Assembly (NCBI GenBank): GCA_937883885.1 | Contig: CAKZXL010000851.1 | Coordinates: 1-10,326, forward strand | DNA: 10,326 nt | Source: an uncultured Aquincola sp. | GTDB taxonomy: Bacteria; Pseudomonadota; Gammaproteobacteria; Burkholderiales; Burkholderiaceae | Direction: 5' to 3' | Part shown: piece by piece, positions 328-10,326 of the stretch | How the letters are laid out: every line of letters starts with the position of its first letter | Numbering within the stretch: position 1 is the first letter of the stretch | Notes under the pieces: model-generated | The model's database searches: none | Told to the model about the DNA's origin: nothing | Seen by the model: only the letters and a program-made list of their open reading frames with translations | Position numbers and translations under genes: made by a program

Positions 328-948
328 ATGACCACGCGCCATTCCTATGCGCCGGCCCAGGGCCACCGCCTGCGCCACGATCCGCTGGCCGCCATCCTGG
401 GCCCGCGGCCCATCGGCTGGATTTCCACGCTCAGCGAAACGGGCGTGGCCAACCTGGCGCCCTACAGCTTCTTCAACGTCTTCAACTACCGGCCGCCCAT
501 CGTGGCGTTTTCCAGCGTCGGCCACAAGGACACGGTGCGCCATGCCCAGCGCAGCGGCCAGTTCGTGTGCAACCTGGCCACCCGGGCGCTGGCCGAGGCG
601 GTCAACCACTCCAGCATCGACGCACCGCCCGGCACCAGCGAGTTCACGCTGTGCGGCCTGACGCCGCGCGCCAGCACGCAAGTGCAGGCCCCGGCGGTGG
701 CCGAGAGCCCGGTGAACCTGGAATGCGAGGTGCTGCAGGTGCAGCGCCTGCACGACCGCCAGGGCCGCCCGCTGGACACCTGGATGGTGCTGGGCGAGGT
801 GGTGATGGTGCACATCGACCCGACACTGCTGAGCGGCCCCGACGGCACCTACGACACCGCCGCCGCCCCCATCCTGCGCGGCGGCGGCCCGGCCGACTAC
901 TTCGAGGTCACGGCGGCCGCGCGGTTCGAGATGCGGCGGCCGGGGTAG
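328..948 (+). CDS. Flavin reductase-like domain protein (FMN-binding split barrel)
   Basis: A 206-residue protein with one flavin reductase-like domain (about residues 15-170). The N-terminal signature HDPLAAILGPRPIGWIST (17-34) is followed by NLAPYSFFNVFNYRPPIVAF (42-61), both typical of the family that binds FMN and either reduces free flavin with NAD(P)H or works as a reductase component. The ATG at 328 is chosen because the family usually starts 15-20 residues before the PRPIGWIS motif. The open frame runs back to ATG 151, but that extension reads as low-complexity translated intergenic DNA. No good Shine-Dalgarno is visible. The protein is probably cytoplasmic. It could supply reduced flavin to an oxygenase, but it lies on the opposite strand from the catabolic operon with a toxin-antitoxin module between, so a link is not supported. 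Confidence 0.85.
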   Translation: MTTRHSYAPAQGHRLRHDPLAAILGPRPIGWISTLSETGVANLAPYSFFNVFNYRPPIVAFSSVGHKDTVRHAQRSGQFVCNLATRALAEAVNHSSIDAPPGTSEFTLCGLTPRASTQVQAPAVAESPVNLECEVLQVQRLHDRQGRPLDTWMVLGEVVMVHIDPTLLSGPDGTYDTAAAPILRGGGPADYFEVTAAARFEMRRPG

Positions 949-1915: not shown

Positions 1916-2434
1916 TCAAAGCGGCCCGTTCGGCACTGCACTCCCCGCTCCACCCGCCACCTCCGGCACCAGCGCCTGCAGCAGCCCCACCAACTGCCGC
2001 CAGCGGGCGTCGCCGAACTGCTGGCGCTGTTGCTGCTGGTGGGCTTGCGCCTGTTCGATCAGCCGGCGCACCGTGGTGTGGCCAGCGGGGGTGATGCGCA
2101 GCAGGGTCTGGCGGCGGTCTTGGGGGTCGGGCTCGCGCAGCACCAGCGCCTGTTGCGCCAGGCGGTCGATCAGCCGCGTGAGTGTGGGCTGCTTGGTGGC
2201 CGCGCGGCGGGCCAGCAGGCCCAGCGGCACCGGGCCGCCATCGGCCAGCGTGGCCAGCACCCGCCACTCCAGCACCGACAGGCCCGCCGCCCGCACCTGC
2301 TCGGCAAAGTCGCCCACCAGGTGGGCGGCGGCCTGCGTCAGCAGCGCCGGCAGGTACTGGGCGACGAAGCCGCCCTCTTGGGGCGGCGCCGCGGGCAGCG
2401 CGTCAATAGCGCCCACTGAGCAAGGCCCCGCCAC
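1916..2434 (-). CDS. MarR-family transcriptional regulator
   Basis: About 166-172 residues with a winged helix-turn-helix of the MarR family. LSVLEWRVLATLADGG begins the domain, LARRAATKQPTLTRLIDRL carries the recognition helix, and DPQDRRQTLLRITPAGH is the wing, with the D-x-R-x-x-x-L-x-x-T-x-x-G signature. MarR proteins are dimeric repressors or activators whose DNA binding is changed by aromatic acids or CoA thioesters, and several control aromatic catabolism. It is the last gene of the catabolic operon and overlaps the 3' end of the maleate isomerase gene. The start is uncertain: GTG 2434 (used here, 32-base overlap) or GTG 2416 (14-base overlap, with a G-rich stretch upstream). No ATG fits. 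It probably senses the pathway substrate or a thioester intermediate; the target promoter lies outside the window. Confidence 0.88.
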   Translation of the reverse strand: MAGPCSVGAIDALPAAPPQEGGFVAQYLPALLTQAAAHLVGDFAEQVRAAGLSVLEWRVLATLADGGPVPLGLLARRAATKQPTLTRLIDRLAQQALVLREPDPQDRRQTLLRITPAGHTTVRRLIEQAQAHQQQQRQQFGDARWRQLVGLLQALVPEVAGGAGSAVPNGPL

Positions 2435-3170
2435 CCGGGATGTGCGTGGGCAGGTTCAGCTGCTTGAGCATCTGCCAGGTGGTGGCCACCGCGGCCGACA
2501 GCGTGGGAATGCCCGACGCATCCTGCACCTTCTGGATGGAAGGCAGCGAAGGCATCTGCACGCAGGCCGACAGCACGATGCCGTCGATGCCGCTGCGGTC
2601 CAGCCGCTGGTAGATCTCCAGCAGGTTGGCCGGGTTCTGCGCCGCCACCGCCAGGTTGTCGGGGATCTCCAGCGCCACGTAGTCCTTCACCTCCACGCCT
2701 TCGTGCTCGATGTAGTCGACCACCAGCTTCGTCAGCGGCTTCATGTAGGGGCAGATCACGCTCACCCGCTTCATGCCCATCGCATGCAGGCCGTCGATCA
2801 GCGCGCCGGCGCTGGTCACCACCGGGGCGGCGTTGCCATTGGTCTCGGTGGCCAGCTGCAGCCGCGCCTGTGACTGGCGGTGGTAGCCCAGGCCCATGCT
2901 CATGATGGCCACCAGGCAGGCATAGCCCAGCACATCGACCTTGGCGTCCGACAGCTCCAGCGCGCAGCGGTCGCTGTCGCGGTCCATGGCTTCCAGCTCT
3001 TCCTTCACCACCTTCTTCATGCGCATGCGGCTGGAGTGGAAGGTGAAGCGCTCGGGCGCCACGTGCTCCCGCGCGCGCAGCAGCGCAGGGATTTCGGTTT
3101 CCATCGTCGTGTTGGACGAAGGCACGATCTGCCCCACGCGGATGGGGCGGGCAACGAAGTCGAAGCTCAT
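2403..3170 (-). CDS. maiA: Maleate isomerase (maleate cis-trans isomerase, Asp/Glu racemase superfamily)
   Basis: A 255-residue cytoplasmic enzyme converting maleate to fumarate without a cofactor. The sequence closely follows characterised maleate isomerases of nicotinate degradation: RVGQIVPSSNTTMETEIPAL (11-30), RFTFHSSRMRMK (41-52), a catalytic cysteine in GYACLVAIM (C85), GYHRQS (95-100), ICPYMKP, and the second catalytic cysteine in LSACVQMPSLP (C203). The length is normal for the family. The ATG at 3170 overlaps the nitrilase-type stop by four bases (ATGA), and GGAGG sits seven bases upstream. In the operon it would be the last step, delivering fumarate to the TCA cycle. Its presence means that the preceding hydrolase releases a maleyl (cis) product directly, with no maleylpyruvate isomerase needed. 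NicE is the equivalent name in the nicotinate pathway. Confidence 0.92.
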   Translation of the reverse strand: MSFDFVARPIRVGQIVPSSNTTMETEIPALLRAREHVAPERFTFHSSRMRMKKVVKEELEAMDRDSDRCALELSDAKVDVLGYACLVAIMSMGLGYHRQSQARLQLATETNGNAAPVVTSAGALIDGLHAMGMKRVSVICPYMKPLTKLVVDYIEHEGVEVKDYVALEIPDNLAVAAQNPANLLEIYQRLDRSGIDGIVLSACVQMPSLPSIQKVQDASGIPTLSAAVATTWQMLKQLNLPTHIPGGGALLSGRY

Positions 3171-4189
3171 GCGGAGGCCTCCGGGCTCACGGTCAGGTCC
3201 AGGCCCTGCAGCGCATCGGCGCTGGCGGGGTCGATGAAGCGCGCCGCCGCCAGCGGCTGGCGGTTGACGCGCAGGTCGAAGATGTCGAAGCGGTTGTAGT
3301 GGCCGGTGATGTCGTGCATCTGCCGCGGCTGCAGGCATTTGCCGAGGTCGATCTCGGCATAGGCGATGCCTTCGACGTCGATCAGCGGCTGGCCGATCAC
3401 GCGGCCGTCGGGCCCGATGAAGCCCGAGAACGCGCTGTTGGGCCGGGCCAGCAGCTCACGCGCCTCGGGGTGGGTGGCGGCCATGGCGTCGACGATCTCG
3501 CTCGACACGGTGGAACACGACACCACCGTGAACAGCTTGCCCTCGAAGCTGTGGGCCGCCGCGCGCAGGCGAATGGCCTCGGCCATGTCGTAGTCCTTGG
3601 GCGCCACCGGCAACGCGATGTAGCTGGCCACGTGCACCAGCTCGCCCTGCGCCAGCAGCGAGAAGCGCGCCAGCGTGTTGGTGTTCTCGCCGCAGGCCAG
3701 CGCCCCCAGCTTGCCGATGGGCGTGTCGTGCACCCGCAGCGCCGAGGCATCGCCCGGCGCCCAGGTGAGCTTCTCGGCCCAGGTGGGCACCAGCTTGCGG
3801 TGGCGGCCCAGCAGGCGGCCGTCTTCGCCGATGGTGACCAGCGTGTTGTAGATGGTGCCGATGCTCTGCGGATGCCGCTCGTTGACGCCGATGACCACAT
3901 GGATGCGGTGGCGTGCCGCGGCCTGCGCGATCTTGCGGATCTCCGGCCCCGGAATCTCGATGGCCGAGCGAGCCAGCCTGTCGAACCACGGGCTGCCGTC
4001 GATCGGGTTCATCACCCAGCTCCAGTACGGGTAGCCCGAGACGAACACTTCCGGAAAGGCCACCAGCCGCGCGCCGTGGGCGGCAGCCTCGGCGATCAGC
4101 CGGCAGGCCTTGTCCACCGTGGCGTCGGTGTCCAGGAAGACGGGCGCGGCCTGCACGGCCGCGGCCTTGAAGGTGGGGAGCTGCAGCAT
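3167..4189 (-). CDS. Nitrilase-superfamily carbon-nitrogen hydrolase (possible maleamate amidase)
   Basis: A 340-residue protein with the complete catalytic set of the nitrilase superfamily: Glu47 in AFPEVFVSGYPYW, Lys132 in HRKLVPTWAEKLTW (with Glu139 as the usual second glutamate), and the nucleophile Cys166 in GALACGENTNTLARF. GHYNRFDIFDL (297-307) is typical of the true nitrilase branch, whose members hydrolyse nitriles to acids and sometimes amides. ATG 4189 starts where homology starts; GAGGTG lies ten bases upstream, and the open frame above it is only the shadow of the preceding gene. It sits between the ring-fission-product hydrolase and maleate isomerase. I infer that the natural substrate is a C4 amide such as maleamate, giving maleate and ammonia. 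Sequence type alone would suggest a nitrilase, so the substrate is unproven. Confidence 0.9.
   Translation of the reverse strand: MLQLPTFKAAAVQAAPVFLDTDATVDKACRLIAEAAAHGARLVAFPEVFVSGYPYWSWVMNPIDGSPWFDRLARSAIEIPGPEIRKIAQAAARHRIHVVIGVNERHPQSIGTIYNTLVTIGEDGRLLGRHRKLVPTWAEKLTWAPGDASALRVHDTPIGKLGALACGENTNTLARFSLLAQGELVHVASYIALPVAPKDYDMAEAIRLRAAAHSFEGKLFTVVSCSTVSSEIVDAMAATHPEARELLARPNSAFSGFIGPDGRVIGQPLIDVEGIAYAEIDLGKCLQPRQMHDITGHYNRFDIFDLRVNRQPLAAARFIDPASADALQGLDLTVSPEASA
3178..3182 (-). promoter_or_regulatory. Shine-Dalgarno of maleate isomerase, inside a palindrome
   Basis: GGAGG on the minus strand lies seven bases before ATG 3170 and fixes this start. It forms half of a perfect ten-base palindrome, GGAGGCCTCC (3173-3182), within the end of the nitrilase-type gene, so the site might be partly masked until the upstream gene is translated. 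Confidence 0.6.
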
Positions 4190-4203
4190 GCCGCGCCCCC
4201 ACC

Positions 4204-5115
4204 TCAGACCGCCACCACCGGGTGGCGCAGGCGGCCGATGCCCTGCACCTGGCCTTCGATCACGTCGCCCGGCCACACCCATTCCTGCGGGCCGCGGCCG
4301 GCGCCCACGCCATCGGGCGTGCCGGTGGCAATGATGTCGCCCGGCTCCAGCGTGATGCCGGCGCTCAGGTCGGCGATCAGCTCGTCCACCTTGAACAGCA
4401 TGTGGCGGGTGTTGGCGCTTTGCTTGGTGATGCCGTTGACCGTCAGGCTCAGGTCCAGCGTCTGCGGATCGGGGATCTCGTCGGCGGTGACGATGCACGG
4501 ACCCATGGGCGCATAGGTGTCCTGGCCCTTGGAATAGATCCACTGGCCGGCGCGGCGGCAGTCGCGTGCGCTCATGTCGATGATCACGGTGTAGCCGAAC
4601 ACGTAGCTCAAGGCTTTTTCCACCGCCACACGCTTGGCGCGGGTGCCGATGACCACGCCCAGCTCGATTTCCCAGTCCAGCTGCTGGGTGATCTTGGCGT
4701 TGTGCTCGATGGCGTCGCCGGGGCCGATGACGGTGGTGGGCGGCTTGGAGAAGATCACCGGCTGCTTGGGCAGATCCTTCGAGGTGTCCAGCGTGCGGGC
4801 CGATTCGGCCACGTGCTCCACATAGTTCAGGCCGATGCCGAAGATGTTCTTGCGCGGCCGCGGGATCGGCGCCAGCAGCTTCACATTGGCCAGCGGCCAG
4901 CTGGTGCCGGCCGGGAAGCGGCCTTCGAACGAGGCCAGCAGCTCGGTGGTGCTGCGCACGGCCTGCGGGCCCAGGTCGATGAAGTCCAGCATGTCGGCCG
5001 GCAGGCTCTGGCCGCGCTGGGCGGCCAGCAGCGCCAGGTCCACGACCTGTTGATCGACGATGGCGCCCAGGCGGGCGGCGGCCAGGATGTCGGCGCGGTA
5101 GGTGACGAGTCGCAT
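4204..5115 (-). CDS. Fumarylacetoacetate hydrolase-family protein (acylpyruvate hydrolase)
   Basis: A 303-residue protein with a short N-terminal region (1-80) and the FAH catalytic domain (about 85-303). Seen are IFGIGLNYVEH (91-101), the metal-ligand pair E149 and E151 in DWEIELGVVIG, the third ligand D180 in FGYTVIIDMSARD, KGQDTYAPMGP (196-206), and the closing GDIIATGTPDGVGAGR. The family cleaves C-C bonds of 2,4-dioxo acids with Mg2+ or Mn2+. After a gentisate-type dioxygenase it would hydrolyse maleylpyruvate, or here possibly maleamoylpyruvate, to pyruvate plus a C4 acid. The next genes handle maleamate and maleate, so the C4 product is probably still in the cis form. GGAG nine bases upstream supports the ATG. 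The stop lies 14 bases before the nitrilase-type start, and a 40-base gap separates it from the dioxygenase gene. Confidence 0.9.
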   Translation of the reverse strand: MRLVTYRADILAAARLGAIVDQQVVDLALLAAQRGQSLPADMLDFIDLGPQAVRSTTELLASFEGRFPAGTSWPLANVKLLAPIPRPRKNIFGIGLNYVEHVAESARTLDTSKDLPKQPVIFSKPPTTVIGPGDAIEHNAKITQQLDWEIELGVVIGTRAKRVAVEKALSYVFGYTVIIDMSARDCRRAGQWIYSKGQDTYAPMGPCIVTADEIPDPQTLDLSLTVNGITKQSANTRHMLFKVDELIADLSAGITLEPGDIIATGTPDGVGAGRGPQEWVWPGDVIEGQVQGIGRLRHPVVAV

Positions 5116-5155
5116 GTGAAGGGTCTCCGATGAGGTGAAGAAGCAGGCGAGGGCG

Positions 5156-6283
5156 TCAGCCCGTCACCGGTTGGTGGCCGCCGTTCTCGGCCAGCGCCTG
5201 TTCGCGGTACAGGCCCAGGGCGTTGATCGTGGGCAGGTCATGGAAGGCGAAGAGGCAGGCGTCTTCGCTGCCGCTGGCGTTGGCGTGTTCGTGGAAGGCC
5301 CACGAAGGCACGCAGAAGATGTCGCGCTCCTGCCAGTCGAAGCGCTGGCCGTTGATCACCGACCAGCCTTGGCCCTTGGCCACCTGGTACAGGAAGCTGC
5401 CGGTGTGGCGGTGGGCTTTGGTGTGCTCGCCAGCGCGCAGCAGCTGCATCGAGGCGCCCACCGTCTGCATCACCGGCCCGCCGGTCAGCGGGTTCACGTA
5501 GTTCATCAGCACGCCGTCGAAGGGGCTGCCGTCGGTCACCGCGGCCTGGCGCACCAGGGCCTCGTAGGTGGCCGCCCATTCGTACTTGAAGAGCGGCGAG
5601 TAAGGCTTGGTCCAGCCGTGCTGCTGCGGCTGCAGACCGGCGCCGGCCCAGGCGGCCATCAGGTCGTTCACCGGGCGCGTCACGGCCTGGTGCAGGTCGG
5701 GGTGCACCGCGTAGAAGTTGGCCTCCATCGCGTTGACCAGCGGAATGTCCAGCCCGTCCTGCCAGATGCAGGGCGTGCCGTCTTCCGCCACGCCATGCTC
5801 GTGCCAGGTGCCGTTGGGCGTGATCACGAAGTCGCGGGCGGCCAGCGTCACCTGGTGGCCGTCGACGATGGTGTAGGCGCCGCTGCCTTCCATGATGAAG
5901 CGCAGCGCCGAAGCCGCATGCGCATGGGCCGAAGCACGCTCGCCCGGCTTCATCACCTGCAGCCCGGCATACAGCCAGCCCACGGCGGCGGAGACGTCGC
6001 GGCGGCCAGGGTTGTCCAGGTACACCACGCGGCGGCCGGCCTTCTCGGGCGTCACCAGGTCGACCGAGCGCAGCACGTGCTCACGCAGGTCGCGGTAGCG
6101 CCACAGCACCGGCACCGAGGCCGACTGCGGCTGCCAGGGCTCGATCTTGTTGGCCACGGTCCACAGCGCGCCGGTCTTCAGCCGGTCCAGCTCGGCGTAG
6201 TAGGCCAGCAGCTCGGGCGAGTCGGCCACGTCGGCGCGGCCGGCCACCGATTCGCGGTATTGGTCGTAGTTGGCTTGGGTCAT
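5156..6283 (-). CDS. Gentisate 1,2-dioxygenase-type double-cupin ring-cleavage enzyme
   Basis: A 375-residue bicupin of the gentisate/1-hydroxy-2-naphthoate dioxygenase family, which uses Fe(II) and O2 to cleave the ring between the carboxyl-bearing carbon and its ortho-substituted neighbour. The N-terminal cupin has H120 and H122 in ASAHAHAASALRF and H161 with H163 in PNGTWHEHG; the stretch FIMEGSGAYTIVDG (129-142) between them is the family hallmark. The C-terminal cupin keeps H291 and H293 (KAHRHTGSF) and H331 with H333 (WAFHEHAN). The length is normal. ATG 6283 is chosen because AGGAG lies seven bases before it and homology begins there. Its upstream neighbours, a CoA-thioester 5-hydroxylase and a thioesterase, would make a 5-hydroxy-2-substituted benzoate. 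Gentisate is the default substrate; 5-hydroxyanthranilate fits the operon better. Substrate choice cannot be read from the sequence. Confidence 0.9.
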   Translation of the reverse strand: MTQANYDQYRESVAGRADVADSPELLAYYAELDRLKTGALWTVANKIEPWQPQSASVPVLWRYRDLREHVLRSVDLVTPEKAGRRVVYLDNPGRRDVSAAVGWLYAGLQVMKPGERASAHAHAASALRFIMEGSGAYTIVDGHQVTLAARDFVITPNGTWHEHGVAEDGTPCIWQDGLDIPLVNAMEANFYAVHPDLHQAVTRPVNDLMAAWAGAGLQPQQHGWTKPYSPLFKYEWAATYEALVRQAAVTDGSPFDGVLMNYVNPLTGGPVMQTVGASMQLLRAGEHTKAHRHTGSFLYQVAKGQGWSVINGQRFDWQERDIFCVPSWAFHEHANASGSEDACLFAFHDLPTINALGLYREQALAENGGHQPVTG

Positions 6284-6290
6284 CGCAGGG

Positions 6291-6295
6291 CTCCT
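6291..6295 (-). promoter_or_regulatory. Shine-Dalgarno that decides the dioxygenase start
   Basis: AGGAG on the minus strand lies seven bases before ATG 6283. The frame stays open far upstream through the preceding gene, so this site, together with where homology begins, separates the real start from the long artefactual extension. Confidence 0.7.
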
Positions 6296-6297
6296 GC

Positions 6298-8625
6298 TCA
6301 GGCGGGGGTCGCGGGGGAAGAAACCAGGGGCTTGGCCAGCACGCGCTCGAACTGCGTGCGCGCCGGCTCGATGGCCGGGTGCCAGGCCACGCCGCCGCGG
6401 CCCAGGCGCACCAGCTCGCGGTGCAGCCAGGCCGGGTCGCTCATGAAGGGGCGGCCGATGGCGCACAGGTCGGCGCGGCCGGAGGCGATCACGCTGTTGA
6501 CCTGGTCGGCCTCGGTGATGGCGCCGACGGCGATGGTGGCCACCTGCGCTTCGTTGCGGATGCGGTCGGCCATTGGCGTTTGATACAGGCGCCCATACAC
6601 CGGACGTTGGTCGGGCGTCACCTCGCCGGTGGACACGTCCACCAGGTCGGCGCCGGCCTGCTTGAACTGCCGGGCCATCTCGATGGCGTCGTCCACCGTG
6701 GTGCCGCCTTCGGCCCAGTCGGTGGCCGACAGGCGCACCGACATCGGCCGGTCGGCCGGCCAGGCGGCACGCATGGCCGCGAACACTTCCAGCGGGTAGC
6801 GCAGGCGCTGGGCCAGCGAACCACCGTACTCGTCGTCGCGCTGGTTGGTCAGCGGCGACAGGAAGCTGGACAGCAAAAAGCCGTGGCCGGCCTGCAGCTC
6901 CAGCCAGTCGACGCCGGCCTCGGCGGCGCGGCGGGTGGCGGCCACAAACGCGTCGCGCACCGCGTCCATCTGCGCGCGGTCCATGGCCGCGGGCACGGCA
7001 GACACCCCGGGCTTGTAGGCCAGGGCCGAAGCCGACAGCAGGGGCCAGCCCTCGGCCAGCGGCTGGTCGGCCGGCTCCCACCCCGGCTGCACCGCGCCGC
7101 GGCGGCCGGCATGGCCCAGCTGCAGACCGAAACGGGCCGGCGTGTGGCGGTGGATGAAGTCGGCAATCGCCGCGATGCCGGCCTGCTGCTCGGCATTCCA
7201 CAGCCCGGTGTCGGCGCGGGTCATGCGGCCCTCGGGCGTCACCGCGGTCATCTCCATCATCACCAGGCCGGCGCCGCCCAGCGCCCGGCTGCCCAGGTAC
7301 ATGCGGTGGAAGTCGCCGGCCACGCCATCGTCGGCCGCGGCCTGCAGCAGCGTGGGCGATACCACCACGCGGTTGCGCAGCGTCAGGCCACGCACCGGGA
7401 AAGGCGTGAGCATCGGCAGCGGGGCAGGCTGCGTGTCGGCCACGCTCACCCCGGCCTGGCCGGCCAGCCAGCGTTCATAGCCGGCCACCCAGGCCGGGTC
7501 GCGCAGGCGCAGGTTCTCGTGCGAGATGCGCTGCGAACGCGTGAGCAGCGAGTAGGTGAACTGCTCGGGCGCCAGACCGGCATAGCGGCGCACGTTCTCG
7601 AACCATTCGGTGGAGTTGCGCGCGGCGTTCTGGATCTTCAGCACCTCCACGCTGCGCACCTCCTGGTAATGGGCCAGGCCGGCGCGCAGGTCGCCTTGTG
7701 CGCCCTTCAGGCAGCGCGCCAGCTCGATCGCGTCTTCCAGCGCCAGCTTGGTGCCCGAGCCGATGGAGAAGTGCGCGGTGTGGGCGGCATCGCCCATCAG
7801 CACCACCGGTATGTCGCCGTTCCAATGCACCCAGCCGCCGCAGATCACCCGCGGGAAGCGGATCCAGATGGCCGAGCCGCGCAGGTGCGTGGCATTGCTG
7901 ATCAGCGGCTGGCCATCGAGCCAGGGCGCGAACAGCCGCTCGCAGAAGGCGATGCCTTCTTCCTGGCTCATCTCGTGCAGCCCGCTCTTGTGCCAGCAGT
8001 CGTCGGGCGTTTCCACGATGAAGGTGGACAGCCCGTTCTCGAAGCGGTAGGCATGGGCCGCGAACCAGCCATGCTCGGTCTCGACGAACAGGAAGTTGAA
8101 GGCGTCGAACACCTTGCGCGTGCCCAGCCACACGAAGCGGCAGTGCCGGGTGTCGATGTCGGGCTGGTAGGTCGCAGCGTAGCGGGTGCGGGTGGGGCTG
8201 TTGATGCCGTCGCTGGCAATCACCAGATCGGCGCCGTACTGGCGCGCGATGGCCTGGTCGTCGGTCACGGTGGTCTCGAACACCAGCTGCACGCCCACTT
8301 CTTCGCAGCGCGCCTGCAGGATGTTGAGCAGCCGCTTGCGGCCGATGCCGATGAAGCCGTGGCCGGTGGTGCGGATGGCCCGGCCCTTGAAGTGCACCTC
8401 GATGTCTTCCCAGCGCGAGAACTCGTCGGCGATGCTGCGGGCCGACACCGGGTCGGCCTCGTGCAGGTGGTCCACCGTGGCATCAGAAAACACCACGCCC
8501 CAGCCGAAGGTGTCGTAGGGGCGGTTGCGTTCGACCACCACCACCTCGTGGCTGGGGTCCTGCAGCTTCATTAGCAGGCCGAAGTACAGGCCGGCGGGGC
8601 CGCCGCCGATGCAGACGATCTTCAT
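6298..8625 (-). CDS. Bifunctional aryl-CoA 5-hydroxylase / Old Yellow Enzyme-type oxidoreductase (anthraniloyl-CoA or salicylyl-CoA)
   Basis: A 775-residue, two-domain flavoprotein. Residues 1-390 are a FAD-dependent aromatic hydroxylase: dinucleotide fold [15 protein letters not shown] (6-20), [13 protein letters not shown] (137-149), and the FAD site [20 protein letters not shown] (275-294). Residues about 400-770 are an FMN-binding Old Yellow Enzyme barrel: [20 protein letters not shown] (501-510), [18 protein letters not shown], and [11 protein letters not shown] (721-731). This fusion and length match 2-aminobenzoyl-CoA monooxygenase/reductase of Azoarcus evansii and the proteins named bifunctional salicylyl-CoA 5-hydroxylase/oxidoreductase. 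Both act on a CoA thioester, hydroxylating C5. Residue 578 is Gln where OYE enzymes usually have the first substrate-binding His of a H-x-x-H motif; H581 is kept. The ATG shares one base with the thioesterase stop (TGATG). Anthraniloyl-CoA is the preferred substrate here, because a C-N hydrolase lies downstream; this is inference. Confidence 0.9.
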
Positions 8626-9050
8626 CAATGTGCCTCCAGCGCGTGGCGCAGTTCGAGGGGGATGGGAATGGCTTCGTGCGTGACCAGCGAGGTGGTCACC
8701 AGGGTCTGGCGGGCCTGCATGCGCAGCTGGCCGTCGCTGCCACGGCAGGCCAGCTCCAGCACCAGCGAGCGGCTGCCGAGGTGGGCCACGTCCAGCGTCA
8801 GCGTCACGTCGTCGCCCATGCGGCTGATGGCCTTGAAGTCGGCCTCGATGCGCACCGAGGGCATGCCCTGCCGGCGGCCCAGGATGTAGCCGGCAAAGCC
8901 GCCGTCGGGCAGCAGCTGGTCGACCCAGGCTTCCAGCAGGTCGTTGAACATCACGAAGTACTGCGGGTAGAAAACGATGCCGGCGGGATCGCATTCCGAG
9001 AAGCGGATGCGGTGCGCGCGGCGGAAATGCCGTGGCGTGGCGGTGGTCAT
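8625..9050 (-). CDS. 4HBT-type acyl-CoA thioesterase (hotdog fold)
   Basis: A 141-residue single hotdog-fold protein. [19 protein letters not shown] (14-32) is the 4-hydroxybenzoyl-CoA thioesterase signature, with Asp21 as the catalytic residue. [20 protein letters not shown] (67-86) is the central strand region typical of the family, and the length is standard. It would hydrolyse an aromatic CoA thioester to the free acid and CoA in the cytoplasm. Placed directly before the hydroxylase gene, with its TGA sharing a base with the next ATG, it most likely acts after hydroxylation. It would release 5-hydroxyanthranilate or gentisate, since the dioxygenase family acts on free acids. ATG 9050 has GGAG seven bases upstream; the open frame beyond is a shadow of the oxidoreductase gene. 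Family assignment is confident; the exact substrate is inferred. Confidence 0.9.
8633..8637 (-). promoter_or_regulatory. Shine-Dalgarno that decides the hydroxylase start
   Basis: GGAGG on the minus strand lies inside the end of the thioesterase gene, seven bases before ATG 8625. It supports this start over the open frame that continues to 8994, and with the TGATG junction points to coupled translation of thioesterase and hydroxylase. Confidence 0.7.
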
Positions 9051-9066
9051 GCGGTATCTCCGGGGC

Positions 9067-10326
9067 TCAGGCGTGCAGCGCCTGTTGTTGCAGCGCGGCT
9101 TGCAGGGCCTTGCCGTGTTCGTCGGCCAGCGCGGCATCGCGCAGCCGGGCCAGCTGCGCCGGGGCCAGCGTGGCGCCGTGGCGGTCCAGCACGCCCAGCA
9201 GCGTCTGGTAGTTGCGCAGGCCGCGGGCATGGGTGTCGCCATAGCCCTTGACCAGCCGCTGCAGCCGCGCCACTTCCAGCGCCAGCGCCGGGTGGCTGGC
9301 GGCCAGCGCCTGCACCCGCTGCAGCCAGTGCTCGATGCGCTGGTTCTCCTGCACGTAGCGCAGCGTGCTGCGGCGGGCCACGCGCCAGCGCGACAGCAGC
9401 CACAGCAGCGCAAAGCCGCGCAGGCTGGAGGTGCGGATCACCCGCCCTTCCCGCGTGAAGCGGGCCACCAGCCGGTGCAGCGCATGCGGCCGGGCCAGCC
9501 AGCGGCCCAGGGCGGCCGGCAGGGTTTCGCACACCTCTTCGATGCGCGGGTGCATGAACTCGTGGATGTGCAGCTGCTGGTCGGCCTTGGCCCGCACCTC
9601 GCCCTGCACGCGCTGGAAGCGGCTGTCGCGGGTCTTCAGGTCCGCCACGCGGATGGTGTCTTCGTACGACATCCACAGCGCCAGGTGACGGGCGGTCTCG
9701 CGCACCAGGGTGTCGTCTTCGGCGCCGGCCTGTTGCACCAGCGCGGCCAGGCGGTCGAGGTAGAGCGCGGCATAGGCCGTGTCCTGGTAGTCGATCAGCC
9801 GGCGCACGCCTTCGCGCACCACGTGGTGGCAAGGCGGACGGTGTTCACGCGCCAGCCGCTGCAGCAGCGCGGCCACGGCGGCAGATTGGGGGGCCGGCGC
9901 AGGCACGTCGGCCGCGGGTTCGGCCGCCGGTGCGTCCTGGCCCAGCGCTGCCTGGCAGCCGCGGCCAAAGGCCTTGAGGCTGGGCTTGACGCCCACGCCA
10001 CCGCGTTCGATGGTGGCCTCGAAGTCGGCGCGCGAAAAGGGCAGGGCGCCCACGCCGCACAGCGCACCGAACAGCACCGCGCTGATCACGCTGCCGCTGG
10101 CTTCGGCGGTGCGCGCCATGTCGAAGCTCACCAGCTTCTGCGCCGCTGCCTTGGCATGCTGCAGCAGCACCTCGTCGTTCACCCGGCCGTCGCCCATCGC
10201 GGCTTTTTCGGCGATGGCGTACACCCGGTGGGTGGAGGTGATGAGGGTGGTGCGCTGCGGCGTCACCAGGCCACGCTGCACCGCGCGGCCGGCTTCCATC
10301 AGCTCGGAGCACAGCACCACGTCCAC
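9067..10326 (-). CDS. Indolepyruvate:ferredoxin oxidoreductase beta/gamma-type protein (C-terminal 419 residues)
   Basis: The gene enters from the right edge, so its start is not visible; 419 residues and the TGA are. Roughly the first 120 residues match the gamma (2-oxoacid oxidoreductase) domain: SELMEAGRAVQRGLVTPQRT, TSTHRVYAIAEKAAMGDGRV, SVISAVLFGALCGVGALPFS, and ERGGVGVKPSLKAFGRG. A proline/alanine-rich linker follows, then an Arg-rich C-terminal domain of the DUF6537 type (MSYEDTIRVADLKTRDSRF, IRTSSLRGFALLWLLSRWRV, KGYGDTHARGLRNYQTLLG) usual in the long beta-subunit family. With a thiamine-diphosphate alpha subunit, expected just outside the window, such enzymes oxidatively decarboxylate aryl-2-oxoacids to aryl-CoA thioesters. 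The thioesterase start is 16 bases downstream, so it belongs to the same operon. It could make the CoA thioester used by the hydroxylase; the substrate is unproven. Confidence 0.85.
   Translation of the reverse strand: MDVVLCSELMEAGRAVQRGLVTPQRTTLITSTHRVYAIAEKAAMGDGRVNDEVLLQHAKAAAQKLVSFDMARTAEASGSVISAVLFGALCGVGALPFSRADFEATIERGGVGVKPSLKAFGRGCQAALGQDAPAAEPAADVPAPAPQSAAVAALLQRLAREHRPPCHHVVREGVRRLIDYQDTAYAALYLDRLAALVQQAGAEDDTLVRETARHLALWMSYEDTIRVADLKTRDSRFQRVQGEVRAKADQQLHIHEFMHPRIEEVCETLPAALGRWLARPHALHRLVARFTREGRVIRTSSLRGFALLWLLSRWRVARRSTLRYVQENQRIEHWLQRVQALAASHPALALEVARLQRLVKGYGDTHARGLRNYQTLLGVLDRHGATLAPAQLARLRDAALADEHGKALQAALQQQALHA

Follow-up and report, generated by a model that had tools for sequence, protein, structure and literature searches.

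What does a bacterium degrade with an operon that joins a CoA-level aromatic hydroxylase to a ring-cleaving dioxygenase, a C-N hydrolase and a maleate isomerase? This question is raised by a 10,326-nucleotide stretch of DNA, contig CAKZXL010000851.1 of an uncultured Aquincola sp. (hereafter the window), whose G+C content is 64-73% in 1-kb steps. Seven adjacent genes lie on its minus strand: IorB (its 5′ end is cut by the window edge, the start lying beyond position 10326), a thioesterase, a fused flavoprotein hydroxylase, a bicupin dioxygenase, a FAH-family hydrolase, a C-N hydrolase and a maleate isomerase, with a MarR regulator next. The gaps from IorB to the isomerase are 16, -1, 14, 40, 14 and -4 nucleotides. 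An earlier note on this DNA had described one tight minus-strand operon with six named enzymes, and all six are present with gaps of -4 to 40 nucleotides; its gene list for 2403..10326 was nevertheless incomplete, since IorB, inside those coordinates, had been left out. The order IorAB, thioesterase, hydroxylase, dioxygenase, FAH hydrolase, C-N hydrolase, isomerase is found again in loci of Cupriavidus, Paraburkholderia, Burkholderia, Trinickia, Variovorax, Paracidovorax and Providencia, and because the same order recurs across these seven genera it is not due to chance. We propose that the operon is probably the lower part of isatin or indole (elsewhere auxin) degradation, proceeding via 5-hydroxyanthranilate.

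In the proposed pathway, IorAB would join isatinate and CoA by oxidative decarboxylation to form anthraniloyl-CoA. The fused flavoprotein would then hydroxylate this at C5 and, judging by its residues and a published property of its relatives, release the aromatic 5-hydroxyanthraniloyl-CoA, from which the thioesterase would free 5-hydroxyanthranilate. Cleavage between C1 and C2 by the cupin dioxygenase would give maleamoylpyruvate, which the FAH hydrolase would split into maleamate and pyruvate; the C-N hydrolase would turn maleamate into maleate and ammonia, and the isomerase would convert maleate to fumarate. What is observed is limited to family assignments, a conserved gene order and changed residues; every reaction is one that we infer. 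The earlier note had assigned one step of a 5-hydroxyanthranilate pathway to each gene it named, and this assignment holds up well, as the proposed order accounts for all six genes and fits the main comparisons. Two amendments are made: the CoA-priming step probably belongs to IorAB, and the reductase site of the hydroxylase is altered. The overall picture would be that of a hybrid, in which anthranilate is broken down at the CoA level and its ring is finally cleaved before the nitrogen has been removed.

Which genes travel together was surveyed by a profile scan of named genomes, with the order of the window read as Burkholderiales and its phylum as Pseudomonadota from the named relatives of its proteins. 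The 80 dioxygenase loci are the best 80 of 566, with some genera over-represented, Achromobacter above all, while 32 contrasting loci, with a related hydroxylase and no such dioxygenase, were drawn from the order of the window alone. Fisher values are nominal, related genomes being non-independent (C-N hydrolase 6e-9, IorA 3e-13, ligase 3e-7). Across the 80 loci, FAH is found in 77, a C-N hydrolase in 55 (37 of type A, the window's own type, and 18 of type B), the isomerase in 27 and the hydroxylase in 26. In the 26 loci that carry both hydroxylase and dioxygenase, FAH accompanies them in all 26, a C-N hydrolase in 25 (19 type A, 6 type B), IorA in 23, IorB in 23, the thioesterase in 20 (at least 38% identity), the isomerase in 14, an isatin hydrolase in 14 and a CoA-ligase motif in three. 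The sole C-N hydrolase miss, L042, is on a contig that ends about 1 kb past the dioxygenase, and the three ligase-bearing loci (L097 of Alcaligenes faecalis, L107 and L108 of Paenalcaligenes) are all iad loci with the ligase among the auxin (iad) genes.

The contrasting loci look quite different, with IorA, dioxygenase and C-N hydrolase each in 0/32 and a CoA ligase in 25/32; a ligase motif or match is lacking in the other seven, some of which lie at contig ends. Within the order, the hydroxylase occurs in 33 of 250 genomes, at 34 places, of which G239:C29 (L163) and G001, the nearest genome compared (95% identity to the window over 8.6 kb), carry the set from IorAB to isomerase and the other 32 do not. 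Further afield, a close dioxygenase with 64-98% identity is present in 12 of 398 genomes of the phylum, and these loci hold the C-N hydrolase in eight cases and IorAB in six; the most divergent (64%) is that of L216, whose stretch is only 3.8 kb. The earlier note had expected a neighbourhood survey to show both the C-N hydrolase and the maleate isomerase alongside the hydroxylase in many genomes; the counts are 25/26 for the C-N hydrolase and 14/26 for the isomerase.

As controls, 20 canonical gentisate-dioxygenase loci of 13.5-17 kb each gave the C-N hydrolase, the isomerase and the hydroxylase in 0/20 apiece and IorA in 1/20 (L159), and one of them, L151, has a single 34% C-N hydrolase match below the survey thresholds. 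This bears directly on a pathway of the Streptomyces sdg type, in which salicylyl-CoA with its 2-OH group would lead to gentisate, an ordinary gentisate dioxygenase would cleave the ring and the FAH protein would be a maleylpyruvate hydrolase. Such a pathway agrees with the NCBIfam name of the hydroxylase, salicylyl-CoA 5-hydroxylase, with the maleylpyruvate hydrolase 6jvv/6jvw among the FAH relatives, and with the closeness of the dioxygenase to 3bu7, which bears the name gentisate 1,2-dioxygenase (564 bits; 363 aligned columns with 64% identity). Yet it leaves the C-N hydrolase, present in 55 of the 80 loci and in none of the 20 canonical ones, without a substrate; the earlier note had reasoned that a 2-amino group explains this otherwise unneeded enzyme, and the same counts fit that reasoning. 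Nor does it account for the isatin hydrolase that adjoins in G001 and in 14 of the 26 hydroxylase-bearing loci, or for the auxin genes in 3/26. The dioxygenase family is also set apart from the canonical ones, its members being at least 64% identical to that of the window and the canonical enzymes at most 42%. In 60 genomes around G001, dioxygenases other than its own are at most 42% identical. Other solved entries named gentisate dioxygenase reach 177-246 bits, and the window protein falls short of the cut-offs both for TIGR02272, gentisate 1,2-dioxygenase (317 vs 442 bits), and for the 5-aminosalicylate 1,2-dioxygenase MabB (271 vs 650 bits). We therefore regard a gentisate pathway here as quite improbable. 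The middle residue of the first-cupin HxH motif was considered as a signature of 5-hydroxyanthranilate and rejected, as it varies among the 80 loci (Arg 32, Ala 30, Lys 11, others 7) and the canonical enzymes have Arg.

If the amino group stays on the ring, the hydroxylase has to hand over an aromatic product, and here its second domain is informative. The protein matches PRK08255, "bifunctional salicylyl-CoA 5-hydroxylase/oxidoreductase", with 1245 bits against a cut-off of 1078, and it shows the fusion of a FAD monooxygenase to an FMN domain of the old yellow enzyme (OYE) type known from 2-aminobenzoyl-CoA monooxygenase/reductase. The intact His-x-x-His site for ring reduction is missing, the window having Gln 578 and Arg 509 instead. 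The site can be read in 27 dioxygenase-linked hydroxylases: that of the window, that of L163 and those of 25 named loci, the twenty-sixth, L037, being truncated at this point. At position 509 all 27 have Arg, vs Lys in 32/32 others; at position 578, 25 have Gln and two His, vs His in 32/32 others. Residue 425 is T in the window vs M in the 32 relatives without dioxygenase. Solved OYEs have Lys and His at these sites in all five alignments shown, two of which are of nearly the same protein, and in OYEs this His pair binds the substrate oxygen. In a tree from which these columns were left out, two changes are needed for dioxygenase linkage, two for Lys/Arg and three for His/Gln, and the linked hydroxylases fall into a beta/gamma-proteobacterial group and a sphingomonad/Brevundimonas group; two independent pairs are too few for a sign test to become significant (median p 0.5). 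The changed site would fit release of an aromatic product. As reported in the available part of PMC3534580, 2-aminobenzoyl-CoA monooxygenase/reductase yields 5-hydroxyanthraniloyl-CoA when NADH is limiting, so with a disabled reductase this compound would be the end product. The classical 2-aminobenzoyl-CoA monooxygenase/reductase pathway, with ring reduction followed by beta-oxidation and the other genes unrelated, can claim the same protein family and fusion architecture as well as the 32 related-hydroxylase loci without such a dioxygenase in the order of the window. Against it stand the changed reductase site and the ring-cleaving gene set that adjoins the hydroxylase instead, and we give this explanation hardly any credence. 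The sphingomonad/Brevundimonas version of the cluster (L077, L083, L087, L096, L099, L104) combines a NIT4-like C-N hydrolase with a separately altered hydroxylase, and in five of these six genomes no maleate isomerase was matched at E 1e-30.

The position of the C-N hydrolase is filled by two distinct nitrilase-type subfamilies, A and B. The window protein has the CN_hydrolase domain and nitrilases as its nearest solved relatives, and the motif CGENTNTL is present in 37/37 type A homologues. A Pfam search with it gave CN_hydrolase only, thus no membership of the superfamily of NicF, the maleamate amidohydrolase. It might accordingly be a true nitrilase, acting for example on indole-3-acetonitrile, with the ring nitrogen lost otherwise, either spontaneously or at the FAH step. 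Consistent with this are the best solved relatives of the two types, NitA (240 bits) and NIT4 (381 bits, type B), and a match to the Nit6803 family, although at 227 bits this equivalog's cut-off of 503 is not reached. The distribution of the gene argues otherwise, as the C-N hydrolase is found in dioxygenase-FAH loci both with the hydroxylase (25/26) and without it (30/54), and the maleate isomerase is restricted to loci with the type A enzyme (27/27 within the 80 loci). NIT4 itself acts on a four-carbon nitrogen compound, which also counts against a true nitrilase, and we consider that role unlikely. The isomerase is closest to the maleate cis-trans isomerase structures 4fq7 (364 bits) and 4fq5 (360 bits), followed by 2xec (211 bits). 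The window protein carries the cysteine motifs GYACLVAIM and SACVQMPSL; among the homologues, YACLVAIM is found in 27/27 and SACVQMPSL, as a strict pattern, in 16/27, and we take the two motif cysteines to be functional residues of maleate isomerase.

How, then, is the CoA thioester made? Isatinate is 2-aminophenylglyoxylate, a 2-oxoacid, and therefore a 2-oxoacid:acceptor oxidoreductase acting on it with CoA would yield anthraniloyl-CoA and CO2 directly; phenylglyoxylate dehydrogenase is a precedent for such CoA-forming oxidation of a 2-oxoacid. The part of IorB within the window matches PRK08312 (indolepyruvate oxidoreductase beta) at 542 bits against a cut-off of 348, and a sequence search for a solved relative of IorA gave none at E 0.001. 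Hydroxylase loci with this dioxygenase have IorA in 23/26, and those without it have a ligase in 25/32 and IorA in 0/32, so there seem to be two sources of the thioester: a ligase or, in the presence of this dioxygenase, IorAB. Probably, then, CoA priming is done by IorAB acting on isatinate, in place of a CoA ligase. All six frames of the window are free of a CoA-ligase motif, and so are the open reading frames (ORFs) above 350 amino acids in 40 kb around its counterpart in G001.

Beyond the point corresponding to the window edge, G001 has a complete IorB and IorA, an isatin-hydrolase-like protein, a StyA-like monooxygenase (208 bits, under the curated cut-off of 550) and an SDR; its other upstream genes we read as candidates for an outer-membrane-type protein, a FAD oxidoreductase, a flavin reductase and a MarR regulator. 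In G001 the isatin-hydrolase-like protein belongs to the cluster, and the window itself stops short of the corresponding place. The G001 protein matches 5nmp with 474 bits, and activity on isatin is reported for this Ralstonia enzyme in what was available of PMC6117287. Among 250 genomes of the order, an isatin hydrolase is present in 8/32 with IorA (E<=1e-120) vs 2/218 others (nominal Fisher 1e-6), and at an IorA identity of at least 67%, a cut chosen after the table had been seen, in 7/12 vs 3/238 (nominal Fisher 8e-9). Ten further loci with a close IorA were fetched. An isatin hydrolase and iad genes adjoin IorAB in four of them (L217-L220), and in the remaining six (L221-L226, L221 reaching a contig end) no isatin hydrolase is near. 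This mixed picture leaves some room for IorAB as an arylpyruvate oxidoreductase that turns indolepyruvate into indole-3-acetyl-CoA, with anthranilate primed by a CoA ligase encoded elsewhere. The family is after all named indolepyruvate oxidoreductase, ligase-type hydroxylase loci occur in the same bacterial order, 24 of the 32 genomes with IorA have no isatin hydrolase match, and in the six fetched loci none is near IorA. Such a role would not explain why IorA goes with hydroxylase and dioxygenase while the ligase takes over where the dioxygenase is lacking, nor why isatin hydrolase and iad genes adjoin IorAB in the other four loci; it is possible, if rather unlikely. We lean slightly towards the bolder proposal that IorAB (IadAB in the auxin loci) is a ligase-free isatinate:acceptor oxidoreductase making anthraniloyl-CoA, and that ring reduction was lost from the hydroxylase on two separate occasions, in the service of a 5-hydroxyanthranilate 1,2-dioxygenase that it feeds.

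Several observations weigh against the proposed pathway. The gentisate-binding residues look conserved in the alignments with 3bu7, and together with the name of that relative this makes gentisate a possible substrate of the dioxygenase. The type A C-N hydrolase, with NitA (6zby) as its nearest solved relative at 240 bits, is nearer to nitrilases than to amidases, so that its amidase role rests on context; the idea that type B might be nearer to amidases was ruled out, its nearest relative being the plant NIT4 (6i00) at 381 bits. His 578 is kept in two hydroxylases of the sphingomonad group (L077, L104), and IorAB was not seen in 3 of the 26 hydroxylase and dioxygenase loci (L081, L099, L104). 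Twelve hydroxylase-bearing loci lack the isomerase; in a genome-wide search that covered 49 of the 53 loci without it, 11 of these 12 genomes were searched (L042 left out) and the isomerase was found elsewhere in five and not at all in six at E 1e-30, so those six need another way to dispose of maleate or maleamate. Among the 32 contrasting loci, L165 carries an isomerase relative (61%) and lacks this C-N hydrolase. Isatin hydrolase at the level of whole genomes, compared for 50 of the 80 loci, was discarded as a weak discriminator (24/26 hydroxylase-bearing vs 16/21 comparison genomes); more could be learnt from its pairing with IorA in the 250 genomes. Finally, in the accessible portion of a preprint (PMC12633357), anthranilate was obtained from a strain given iadC-K2 only, from which IadAB seems dispensable for free anthranilate there. 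The cloned region, as described in that portion, is iadCDEFGHIJK2, without iadAB, and the overexpression strains were built in a locus deletion, so our model predicts a build-up of isatinate if iadAB were among the genes deleted; some compound formulae given there appear to us to match 2-aminobenzaldehyde and isatinate. Since these strains still produce anthranilate according to the same portion, a bypass of IadAB would have to exist. In the literature found, as far as its texts were available, nothing links isatin or isatinate to IorAB, anthraniloyl-CoA or a ferredoxin oxidoreductase, and PMC9613470 names isatin and iorAB unlinked.

The coordinates of the genes are given in Table 1. A flavin-reductase-like protein at 328-948 has a homologue in 41/80 dioxygenase loci vs 0/52 control loci, and its solved relatives include the 2-nitrobenzoate nitroreductase 4z85; it may protect 5-hydroxyanthranilate as a quinone-imine or nitro reductase. 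The plus-strand stretch at about 944-1745 has no counterpart in G001, where about 190 bp are found instead, and is perhaps a recent insertion. A small HTH_37 protein is encoded there (1397-1681), and the ORF before it resembles a toxin-antitoxin partner of the RelE/HigB type.

Table 1. Genes of the window, with proposed functions where these are predicted.
Feature	Coordinates	Strand	Match or motif
IorB / IadB-like beta subunit, 2-oxoacid:acceptor oxidoreductase	9067..10326	-	NCBIfam PRK08312 542 bits; Pfam DUF6537
4HBT-type acyl-CoA thioesterase, proposed 5-hydroxyanthranilate release from CoA	8625..9050	-	Pfam 4HBT_2
FAD monooxygenase fused to OYE-type FMN domain, proposed anthraniloyl-CoA 5-hydroxylase, ring reductase predicted disabled	6298..8625	-	PRK08255 1245 bits
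Gentisate-dioxygenase-like bicupin, proposed 5-hydroxyanthranilate 1,2-dioxygenase	5156..6283	-	3bu7 564 bits, 64% identity
FAH-family hydrolase, proposed maleamoylpyruvate hydrolase	4204..5115	-	Pfam FAA_hydrolase 237 bits
C-N hydrolase type A, proposed maleamate amidohydrolase	3167..4189	-	Pfam CN_hydrolase 143 bits; motif CGENTNTL
Maleate cis-trans isomerase	2403..3170	-	4fq7 364 bits; Pfam family Amdase
MarR-family regulator, start codon uncertain	1916..2434	-	Pfam MarR
FMN-binding flavin-reductase-like protein, likely module accessory	328..948	+	Pfam Flavin_Reduct (PF01613)

The dioxygenase and FAH pair also occurs in other company. In the 54 loci without the hydroxylase, where the substrate for the same ring cleavage may have a different origin, the companions are a GntR regulator (39 loci), a LIV-type ABC binding protein (24 loci) and an alpha/beta hydrolase (22 loci). 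Loci such as L055, L067, L070, L079 and L080 represent a second type of cluster, in which dioxygenase and FAH are accompanied by neither hydroxylase nor IorAB; perhaps a 5-hydroxyanthranilate compound is taken up there ready-made, for instance in acylated form. In L100 and L216 the available stretch (a 3.8 kb contig for L216) lacks both hydroxylase and IorAB and unites C-N hydrolase, dioxygenase, FAH and isomerase, perhaps a minimal set leading from 5-hydroxyanthranilate to fumarate, and L207 and L209 combine iadCDE, IorAB, dioxygenase and FAH with no recognised hydroxylase.

How does this pathway compare with known ones? The Streptomyces sdg pathway hydroxylates salicylyl-CoA at C5 at the CoA level and continues with gentisate-type cleavage; here a 2-amino group would replace the 2-OH, hence the C-N hydrolase and the maleate isomerase. 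In the nicotinate/nicotine branch (NicF/NicE type), maleamate is turned into maleate and maleate into fumarate by way of an amide hydrolase of another superfamily; the same steps would be taken here, with an isomerase of the 4fq7 family and an amide hydrolase from a different superfamily. Judging from the available parts of PMC4539516 and PMC3534580, the 2-aminobenzoyl-CoA pathway of Azoarcus evansii shares with our operon the attack on anthranilate at the CoA level and presumably the same family of fused flavoprotein, but it starts with a CoA ligase, and the ring is reduced and beta-oxidised, whereas here IorAB seems to stand in the place of the ligase, the reductase is altered and a ring-cleaving dioxygenase is present. 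According to the portions of PMC4539516 and PMC6221969 at hand, Nocardia opaca degrades anthranilate via 5-hydroxyanthranilate and gentisate, and Alcaligenes In3 has gentisate in its indole pathway; cleavage of 5-hydroxyanthranilate or of the gentisate type would be a common trait, although here the nitrogen would stay until after the ring is cleaved. The iad auxin locus of Variovorax, Achromobacter, Bradyrhizobium and Alcaligenes (PMC9613470, PMC12633357, each in its accessible part) shares IorAB, there IadAB, and an isatin-hydrolase-type protein of PF04199, and iorA and iorB are among the homologous genes of auxin loci whose end product is given as anthranilate (PMC9613470, same part). It differs in having anthranilate as its stated end and in the presence of iadCDE, which are absent from the window; blastp with the iadC, iadD and iadE proteins of L097 gave no match in the 40 kb around the counterpart in G001. 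The iad clusters of Alcaligenes and Paenalcaligenes (L097, L107, L108) themselves contain IorAB, hydroxylase, dioxygenase, FAH and C-N hydrolase. In the literature searched, mostly excluding subscription papers, we recognised no description of the full gene set.

What is at stake is the fate of anthranilate. In the parts available, the iad papers (PMC9613470, PMC12633357) take the pathway to end there and assign no step to IadAB, and the functional gene for a gentisate pathway in indole degradation had, as of 2018, not been revealed (PMC6221969, part available). If our proposal is true, the operon would lead from isatin to pyruvate, ammonia and fumarate with no need of a ligase, and in the Alcaligenes group such genes would supply the lower half that the iad auxin pathway has been missing. 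It would also present a fused flavoprotein in which the second domain was apparently turned off on two occasions, changing the outcome of the pathway. Candidate genes for each step after anthranilate, across a range of named bacteria, would help to answer what becomes of it.

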